From Planctomycetota bacterium (GTDB lineage: Bacteria; Planctomycetota; Phycisphaerae; Phycisphaerales; Phycisphaeraceae), in assembly GCA_021413865.1 (NCBI GenBank), contig JAIOPN010000014.1, positions 62,001 to 126,000 on the forward strand: DNA of 64,000 nt, given 5' to 3'. The notes beneath the pieces are model-generated. The model saw nothing but the letters and a program-made list of their open reading frames with translations. It had not been told where the DNA came from and made no database searches. The position numbers were made by a program, and so were the translations under genes. Position 1 is the first letter of the stretch. The number at the start of each line of letters is the position of its first letter. Positions 56,642-58,924 of the stretch are shown here, in pieces.

Positions 56642-58924
56642 ATGACGACCAGCGCCTCCACCGCGGACGCATCGTTCGATCTCGCCGCGACCGCCGAGTC
56701 CATCAAACGGCTGCGCGAGGAGGTCGGCAAGGTCGTCATCGGCCAGCACTCGGTCATCGAGCAGATGATGCTCGCCCTCATCTCGCGCGGGCACTGCCTG
56801 CTCATCGGCGTGCCCGGCCTGGCCAAGACCGTCATGGCCAAGGCGCTGGCAGACGCGCTGGAGATGCAGTTCAAACGCGTCCAGTTCACCCCCGACCTCA
56901 TGCCCTCCGACATCACGGGCACCAACGTCCTCCAGGAAGACCCCGACACCGGTCGCAAGAGCTTCCAGTTCATGCCCGGTCCGGTCTTCACCAACGTCCT
57001 GCTCGCCGACGAGATCAACCGCACGCCCCCCAAGACGCAGGCCTCGCTCCTCGAGGCGATGCAGGAGCGCCGCGTCACCTTCGGCGGTGAGCAGCGCCCG
57101 CTTCCGGACCCCTTCATCGTCCTGGCCACGCAGAACCCGCTCGAACAGGAGGGCACCTACCCGCTCCCCGAGGCGCAGCTCGATCGCTTCATGCTCAGCG
57201 TGCTGGTGACCTACCCGTCCCACATGGAAGAGAACCAGATCGTCTCGGCGACGACGGAGCGCCGCCGTCCGGTGCTGACGAAGGTGCTGGGCGTCGAGCA
57301 GGTGCGGGCGATGCAGCGGCTGGTGCGCGAGCTGCCGGTGGACCCGAAGGTGGTGCGTTACGCCGTGGCGCTGGCGCGGGCGACCCGGCCGGGCGACTCG
57401 TCGCCGGAGTTCATCAAGAAATACGTCGATTGCGGCGCGGGGCCCCGCGCCGGGCAGTTCCTGGTGCTGGCCGCCAAGAGCCGCGCCGTGCTCGCCGGGC
57501 GGACGGACACGACGATCGACGACGTGAAGGCCTCGGCTCAGGGCGTGCTGCGGCACCGGGTGTTTACCAACTTCACCGCGCTGTCGGAGGACATCACGAC
57601 CGACGAGCTGGTGAAGAAGCTGGTGCACGAGACGCGCGAGGGCGAGGGTGGGCGGATCGTCCACGCCGTGCCGGACACCAGCGCGCAGCCGGCGGTGAAG
57701 CTCTCCGCCGGGACGGACGCGGTGGCGATCATCCGCGACATGAAGGCGATCACGCAGCGGGTGCGCGACGAGGTGGGCCAGATGATCGTGGGCCAGGCGG
57801 ATGTGATCGACCTGGTCATCACCGCGCTGCTCGCCGGCGGGCACTGCCTGCTGGTGGGCGTGCCGGGCTTGGCCAAGACCACGCTCGTGCAGACGCTCGC
57901 CTCCGTGCTGGACCTGGACTTCAAGCGTGTGCAGTTCACGCCCGACCTTATGCCCACCGACATCACCGGCACGGACGTGATGGAGATCAACGACACCGAC
58001 GGCAGGCGCGTCTTCCGCTTCCTCCCCGGGCCGATCTTCACCAACATGCTGCTGGCCGACGAGATCAACCGCACGCCGCCCAAGACCCAGGCCGCGCTGC
58101 TCGAGGCGATGCAGGAGATGTCGGTCACCTCGGGCAACACGACCTACCCGCTCAAGCCGCCCTTTTTCGTGCTCGCCACGCAGAACCCGCTGGAGCAGGA
58201 GGGCACCTACCCGCTCCCCGAGGCACAGCTCGACCGTTTCATGTTCAACATCCACCTCGACTATCCAAGCTCCGACGAGGAGACGGTGATCGTGGACCGC
58301 ACGACCGGCTCGCAGGGCCGGCCGCCGGGCAAGGTGATCGGCGGCGAGGAGATCATGCGGCTGCAGGAGATCGTGCGACTGGTGCCGGTCTCCAAGCATG
58401 TGCTGACCTACGCGACGACGCTGGCGCGGATGACCCGGCCCGAGACCAAGGGCTGCCCGGCGTTCGTGACCGAGTTCGTGCACTGCGGCGCGGGACCCCG
58501 CGCGGCACAGAACCTCATCCTGGGCGCCAAGGCCCGCGCGGTGATGCAGGGCAGGCCCAACGTGTCGGTGGCGGACATCAAGGCGGTGGCGATCCCCGTG
58601 CTGCGGCACCGCATCTTCACGAACTTCAGCGCCGACGCCGAGGGCGTGACCGCCGAGTCGCTGGTGAAGAAACTGCTCAAGACGGTGACCGAGCCGAAGA
58701 TGGAGCCGGCGGAGCGCGAGCGTGAGCCCGAGGCGGAGAGCGAGTCGGCGATCCGTCAGGCGGACGCGTTCACGGTGACCTGCTCCAAGTGCGGCAAGAC
58801 GCTCAAGCTCAGCCGCCGCGCCGTGGGCCGCAACGCCAAGTGCCCCAACTGCAAGCACGTGTTCCCCGTCGAGGCGCCCGGGGGCTCCCACGCCGCCGAA
58901 CCCGAAACGGAGGAGACGCCGTGA
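56642..58924 (+). CDS. Tandem MoxR AAA+ ATPase with C-terminal zinc ribbon
   Basis: A 760-aa single polypeptide with two complete MoxR modules. Module 1 (about 20-335): Walker A GVPGLAKT (56-63), LLADEINR Walker B (120-127), [22 protein letters not shown]. Module 2 (about 365-690) repeats all these at 406-413, 470-477 and 512 on, exactly 350 residues later. Both keep the catalytic Lys, Asp-Glu and Asn. Residues 711-745 hold [28 protein letters not shown], a four-Cys zinc ribbon (C714, C717, C734, C737). MoxR proteins are normally about 330 aa and hexameric; here three chains may make one ring. They assist vWA-protein assembly and export, and the neighbouring DUF58 and BatA genes fit. The ATG at 56642 begins the coding stretch. 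Confidence 0.92.

Follow-up and report, generated by a model that had tools for sequence, protein, structure and literature searches.

A planctomycete protein with two MoxR ATPase modules and a predicted zinc ribbon in one chain

Gene D of a planctomycete operon encodes two MoxR ATPase modules, a linker and a predicted C-terminal zinc ribbon in a single uninterrupted frame of 760 amino acids, located on the plus strand of the 64,000-nucleotide stretch of DNA analysed here (the window; Table 1). Judged from the sequences compared below, the fused double MoxR is a real, conserved new variant of MoxR ATPases. The usual form of these proteins, which is not a strict definition, has one module of about 330 amino acids per chain; the form described here has two, in six complete proteins and one truncated protein. 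No report of a two-module MoxR was found in a literature search whose sources included few subscription papers.

Two AAA+ modules and a predicted zinc ribbon in gene D

In gene D, the Pfam family AAA_3 scores over its cut-off in two stretches (411 bits in total; cut-off 27), as does AAA_lid_2 (105.3 bits; cut-off 22.7). The motifs GVPGLAKT (residues 56 and 406), ATQNP (162 and 512), LDRF (180 and 530) and GAGPRA (265 and 616) occur once in each half, and LLADEIN can be read from the sequence of both. We take them to be, respectively, Walker A, sensor 1, the arginine-finger region, sensor 2 and Walker B. The two Walker A motifs are 350 residues apart. In accordance, an earlier note on this DNA had described a 760-residue protein with two full MoxR modules, intact motifs and this same spacing, and had suggested that both modules look active; they are indeed both intact and conserved in one chain, as far as sequence can tell. 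The genome of the window has 13 AAA_3 matches, of which nine are strong (E 2.2e-64 to 3.7e-61), and two of these nine belong to gene D.

Table 1 Coordinates of the double MoxR gene, its parts and its operon in the window
Feature	Position	Strand	Basis or conservation in genomes with complete doubles
Gene A: large, three N-terminal hydrophobic segments	49977..53726	+	in all six genomes, unlinked in ARS65
Gene B: signal-like N-terminus, weak PA14 match, C-terminal TPR	53723..55789	+	linked in 6/6
Gene C: 251 aa, signal-like N-terminus, weak carboxypeptidase-regulatory-like match	55786..56541	+	linked in 6/6
Gene D: double-MoxR protein, C-terminal zinc ribbon	56642..58924	+	translation, Pfam, orthologues, AlphaFold model
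N-terminal MoxR module, residues 15-338	56684..57655	+	hmmsearch envelope 15-338; motifs; 2R44 alignment over model 5-335
Inter-module linker, residues 339-360	57656..57721	+	near-constant length, diverged sequence
C-terminal MoxR module, residues 361-690	57722..58711	+	hmmsearch envelope 361-690; motifs; phmmer to 2r44_A over 372-683
CxxC-x16-CxxC zinc ribbon, about residues 709-745	58766..58876	+	cysteines conserved; predicted strands
Gene E: probably exported, RRRFL Tat-like N-terminus, two DUF4159 stretches	58921..60519	+	linked in 6/6
Gene F: 270 aa, signal-like N-terminus	60545..61357	+	linked in 5/6
Gene G: DUF58, DCSAS (vWA MIDAS-type) motif, presumed vWA partner	61388..62299	+	linked in 5/6
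Gene H: BatA N-terminus and vWA (DNSYS), membrane protein	62303..64000	+	continues past the window to about 64576 (read in L084)

The C-terminal ribbon, which the earlier note had also pointed out, has CxxC pairs at residues 714 and 734, giving CxxC-x16-CxxC. It scores under the curated cut-offs of Zn_ribbon_4 (18.9 versus 30.3 bits) and MJ0042 (16.1 versus 20.9 bits). Despite these scores, the ribbon of the doubles is not a chance pattern on sequence grounds, since the identical CxxC-x16-CxxC is present in all six complete doubles. The two CxxC knuckles, about 16 residues apart, are accompanied by a small beta fold with four strands between residues 709 and 742 of the AlphaFold model, and zinc binding is predicted.

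The AlphaFold model of gene D has a mean pLDDT of 89.5 and a pTM of 0.83, with values of about 85 for the linker and about 90 for the ribbon. The underlying alignment has 58 rows (seven doubles and 51 singles; 18 loci that were near copies, short or divergent were excluded). When the alignment was tried out, the 51 singles all aligned to the C module, which in that trial left seven rows to cover the N module; an earlier model made from seven rows (pLDDT 61.7) was set aside. The N module superimposes on 2R44 from Cytophaga hutchinsonii with Z 38.3 and an rmsd of 2.8 over 327 residues, and more distantly on RavA (3NBX, Z 26.6) and BchI (1G8P, Z 23.5), in a re-ranking of PDB hits that covered mainly this module. 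The C module matches 2r44_A by phmmer (E 3.5e-79). 2R44 shares fold and motifs with both modules of gene D, but it is a single module of 331 residues, whereas gene D has two modules and the ribbon. Foldseek aligns both modules to dynein chains at an rmsd of about 25 Å over 783 columns. Therefore, the model supports the prediction of two full AAA+ modules, not a mutual arrangement in which they pack as neighbours. Searches of a viral structure library with the gene D model gave general AAA+ matches only.

Gene D also matches the bpMoxR profile (87.4 bits). No beta-propeller family is listed for the operon proteins A-J, of which H was scanned partly here and fully in the related genome G007 only. 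In PADLOC, gene D has short matches only, mostly around the P-loop, and A, B, E and G have none; a role as an anti-phage defence system finds no support there.

Distribution and origin of the double

Complete doubles are found in six genomes of the window's order, the genome of the window included, and these represent six genera. All share the fused frame and the ribbon, and their Walker A motifs are 350-352 residues apart (6/6). The other five are 64-70% identical to gene D. The only change noticed beside a motif in the six is EINC in place of EINR in the C module of genome G017. A seventh double, in genome G229 of another class of the phylum, is 53% identical to gene D; it is cut by the start of its contig, has a proline-rich tail without the ribbon, and has its modules 8 residues further apart than in the complete doubles.

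The doubles are patchily distributed. Counting the genome of the window each time, they are present in 4/51 genomes of the family (best 17-21 candidates per genome scored, as for the close relatives), 6/251 of the order (best 4-5 candidates) and 2/392 of the phylum (best two candidates), so that the absences are soft ones. In a scan of the class, also scoring the best two candidates per genome, 57/397 genomes passed E 1e-160 (58 rows, of which 20 became loci). By matched range, the row of the window's own genome is the sole double among those listed, genome G745 shows two adjacent genes, and the remaining 56 rows start at model position 324 or later, that is, in the C half. One of nine genomes searched from the class of G229 has a double. 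A peptide-pattern scan of genome contigs with six short gene D peptides kept 64 loci and found two doubles, in Planctomycetales bacterium ZRK34 (CP050848.1, titled complete chromosome) and in ARS65 (NYZC01000391.1). Among all retrieved loci, a pattern scan found two Walker A motifs within one frame solely in loci of doubles.

The earlier note had raised the concern that a sequencing error had joined two adjacent genes. In favour of such an error, an unfused pair of adjacent moxR genes does exist, in G745. However, all six complete doubles are in one frame with a near-constant module spacing, that of ZRK34 (G057) lies on a single contig of 5,710,378 bases, and the G745 pair sits elsewhere in the tree. 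The orthologues thus refute a joining error in assembly or sequencing, which we reject as vanishingly improbable.

In a careful tree of 57 modules, all 14 modules of the doubles form one clade (100/99), which is also recovered in quick trees of 80 and 94 rows (SH-aLRT 99 in both). Within it, the six N modules of the window's order group together (100/99), as do the six C modules (100/99). The seven N modules including that of G229 form a group at 95/91; the seven C modules including G229 form no single clade in the 80-row or 57-module tree. Duplicate locus copies (L078, L079 and L093) and fragments (L074 and L076) were dropped beforehand, L077 gave no module, the very long branch L089 was left out of the 94-row and 57-module trees, and the latter also omits 22 further single loci. 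L089 itself (8822-10732) is a very divergent MoxR-like frame of 637 amino acids, whose AAA_3 domain spans 363-493 and whose long N-terminal part has no Pfam match. Because the 14 modules are one clade and the N modules fall together, the simplest reading of the sequences is that a single old tandem duplication, with fusion, preceded the split between G229 and the window's order. Given the patchy presence, loss or transfer of the double must, on the same reading, also have been common.

The two moxR genes of G745 (L120, 6151-8235; 333 and 346 amino acids) are different from each other and lie upstream of DUF58 and BatA-like genes. In the first of them, ATQIP stands in place of ATQNP and GAGLRA in place of GAGPRA. 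The pair groups mutually at 91 inside a starred set of 17 rows that includes singles, away from the double clade, and its nearest relatives in the 94-row tree are singles of Gemmatimonadota and Latescibacterota. Since the pair lies outside the double clade, the trees indicate that MoxRs came to be paired in one locus on at least two occasions and that these separate genes, of separate origin, are not the parent of the fusion.

The two modules have diverged under similar constraint. Across 15 pairs of complete doubles, mean amino-acid identity is 0.703 for the N module, 0.724 for the C module, 0.315 for the linker and 0.369 for the ribbon region, and differences at first, second and third codon positions are 0.232/0.155/0.489 for N and 0.217/0.141/0.459 for C. 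Near-fixed linker length with drifting sequence suggests a geometric constraint on the linker. Within one protein, the N and C modules are 56-58% identical, and fourteen positions separate them (for one of these, only three N rows are available). Among the N modules that include these positions, A66 (V or I only in 65 singles), M75 (L in 98% of singles) and K106 (R in 98%) are invariant. In the pre-sensor-1 hairpin, residue 152 is R (five) or M (one) in N modules and Y, H or F in 93% of singles. In the 80-row tree, the stem of the six N modules is 0.65 long and that of the six C modules 0.31. By these sequence measures the N module looks specialised, not decaying.

The operon and its vWA proteins

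Genes A-J are consecutive, with gaps of -10 to 30 bases, except for 100 bases before gene D. The latter interval (56542-56641), directly 5' of the double MoxR gene, is the sole sizeable gap in the operon. Upstream of the operon, 47042-49942 encodes consecutively a polysaccharide deacetylase, a GNAT-type acetyltransferase and a DOT1-like/methyltransferase protein, and the minus strand at 38745-41993 has a frame of 1082 amino acids in which an amidohydrolase domain precedes a class-III aminotransferase domain. The content of the neighbouring genes is as the earlier note described it; the operon neighbours number nine, not eight.

Three kinds of potential vWA partner lie in the operon, namely DUF58 (gene G, 164.5 bits), BatA/vWA (gene H) and gene I, which combines a vWA domain (below the cut-off here) with a glutamine-amidotransferase-like (GATase) domain; all three have DxSxS motifs, and they are linked to the double in 5/6 genomes. 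By a simple hydropathy reading, which is not a signal-peptide predictor, hydrophobic stretches lie at the N-termini of the A, B, C, F, H, I and J products; the same reading finds no membrane segment in G, and the lone hit in gene D falls inside the C module. The product of gene E is, from its sequence, probably outside the cytoplasm.

Genes B, C, D and E are linked in all six genomes with complete doubles, and the ten-gene operon is kept in five of the six. ZRK34 and G007 have the full series A-J in order, J being truncated where the extracted stretch ends; in G007, roughly 1.9 kb of additional sequence separates A from B. G443 has A-E and G-J, and gene F was not detected there, tblastn included. 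In G017, A to H are present and the contig ends in H. The exception is ARS65 (L015, 9993-15934), in which B-F are linked and followed by 5.9 kb of other genes, mostly on the opposite strand; there is no gene A within 2.2 kb upstream, and G-J are not downstream of F. We therefore reject the idea that the entire operon is always retained, and with A and G-J unlinked in ARS65 the operon is, on this comparison, not indispensable. The split is offset by a relative of gene G kept on another contig (68% identical; 462.9 bits versus 247.8 for the next DUF58), and a relative of gene A, 45% identical, is likewise on another contig (A and G relatives: L124 and L127). Retention of both, though unlinked, points to a working link with the double MoxR.

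Among the 251 genomes of the order (best 4-5 candidates per genome scored), a gene E homologue at E 1e-90 is present in exactly the six that have the double, a shared distribution indicating, at the level of sequence matches, that B-E are inherited as a unit. In 73 other loci, which were chosen by their MoxR, have limited flanks and include three loci of doubles (L078, L079 and L083), F and J have no match, and B and C match in L079 only, itself a locus of a double.

Several parallel MoxR-DUF58 systems coexist in the genome of the window. In its six single-MoxR loci (L085-L088, L090 and L091), as in the gene D operon, MoxR is accompanied by DUF58, which lies next to it in 6/6, and in 5/6 also by BatA/vWA. 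The DUF58, BatA/vWA and vWA-GATase proteins of the gene D operon resemble those of these operons. Unlike gene D, the single loci have one module, no CxxC in the MoxR frame and no matches to B, C, F or J nearby.

The earlier note had read the surrounding genes, with their tandem DUF4159 protein, as a duplicated or two-layer system, which did not hold up. In eight DUF4159 proteins scanned, two DUF4159 stretches are present in gene E of the window's genome, G007 and ZRK34, but also beside single MoxRs (L086 and L091 of the window's genome, and L059), while L054 and L061 have one. DUF4159 doubling therefore does not track MoxR doubling, and co-duplication of the two is rejected. DUF58, BatA and vWA-GATase are single-copy in the gene D operon.

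Arrangement of the modules and possible function

Related systems offer a guide. NorQ is hexameric, which agrees with one NorD being bound (PMC9976466), and a VWA finger enters the NorQ pore (PMC13036017). NorQ/NorD and RavA/ViaA share with the gene D operon the logic of a MoxR and a vWA partner, but their rings are of single modules and their partners of other families. Other reports mention that E. coli has two MoxR genes (PMC3893208) and describe a MoxR with a His tag (PMC11834572).

We propose that the double is a MoxR-vWA chaperone, a ring of three two-module chains that acts with DUF58 on an envelope complex; of the readings weighed here we hold this the most likely, and as probable as its opposite. 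After tandem duplication and fusion of moxR had given one chain with two active-looking modules, three chains would make up one six-position ring in which N and C modules alternate. By analogy with NorD on NorQ, the vWA domain of the DUF58 protein would dock in the pore, and ATP hydrolysis would remodel or mature an inner-membrane or envelope complex comprising the products of A, H and I and the probably exported products of B, C, E, F and J. With the modules fused, the N:C ratio and the order around the ring would be set, and there would be half as many C-terminal tails. Each ring would thus have three flexibly tethered zinc ribbons, whose simplest role would be to hold a partner. The tether preceding the ribbon varies much in length among orthologues, unlike the inter-module linker, which would fit a flexible recruiting arm.

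Alternation in one ring is the simplest start, because a module fresh from duplication still has its own interface for ring formation. In favour of the model are the motifs kept in both modules of the six complete doubles, the similar constraint on the two, and the MoxR-DUF58-BatA/vWA core shared by five single-MoxR operons of the window's genome. Against the model, the predicted chain does not overlay the dynein modules (about 25 Å), and the G229 double has no ribbon and a wider module spacing.

In addition, a linker of 22-30 residues would also allow stacked rings, in which six chains form two six-membered rings with the N modules in one and the C modules in the other. The two-module AAA+ chains of p97 and ClpB form two stacked rings, and the divergence of N from C (56-58% identity), the separate N and C clades (100/99 each), expected if each module meets its own kind, and the N-fixed residues 66, 75 and 106, which differ from nearly all singles, would agree with such an arrangement. 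However, the N and C modules are sisters of one duplication (100/99), and the known concatenated proteins of the MoxR/dynein/midasin clade form one ring; in p97-type proteins, by contrast, the difference between the two modules is ancient. We consider stacking unlikely. Alternatively, the fusion may change little if one module works in an ordinary MoxR ring and the other, a linked spare, is mainly structural or regulatory. The longer N stem (0.65 versus 0.31) and the R or M at residue 152 of the N modules, where 93% of singles have Y, H or F, could be taken that way, but in each of the six complete doubles the N module retains Walker A, Walker B, sensor 1, LDRF and sensor 2, and the two modules are similarly constrained. 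A spare module therefore seems quite unlikely.

The proposed alternating three-chain ring invites comparison with larger relatives. In dynein and midasin, six AAA+ modules are concatenated in each chain to form a single ring. Both proteins lie inside the MoxR clade (PMC7159879). Like gene D, dynein and midasin/Rea1 have modules of this clade in one chain; they are eukaryotic, however, with six modules, whereas gene D is bacterial and has two sister modules. Gene D could accordingly be a covalent MoxR dimer, with three chains in an alternating ring of non-equivalent positions, three ribbon tethers, and DUF58 and membrane clients in its operon, and could represent a two-module step towards the rings of dynein and midasin. 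We offer this tentatively, as somewhat less probable than its opposite.

In the literature covered here, MoxR rings have one kind of module, so testing which positions must be active needs engineered mixing. The natural fusion has two different modules in each chain, so that each half would be separately switchable. The double MoxR would also provide a bacterial two-module case within the AAA+ clade of dynein and midasin, and gene D sets one of several parallel MoxR-DUF58 operons in the cell apart from the rest.
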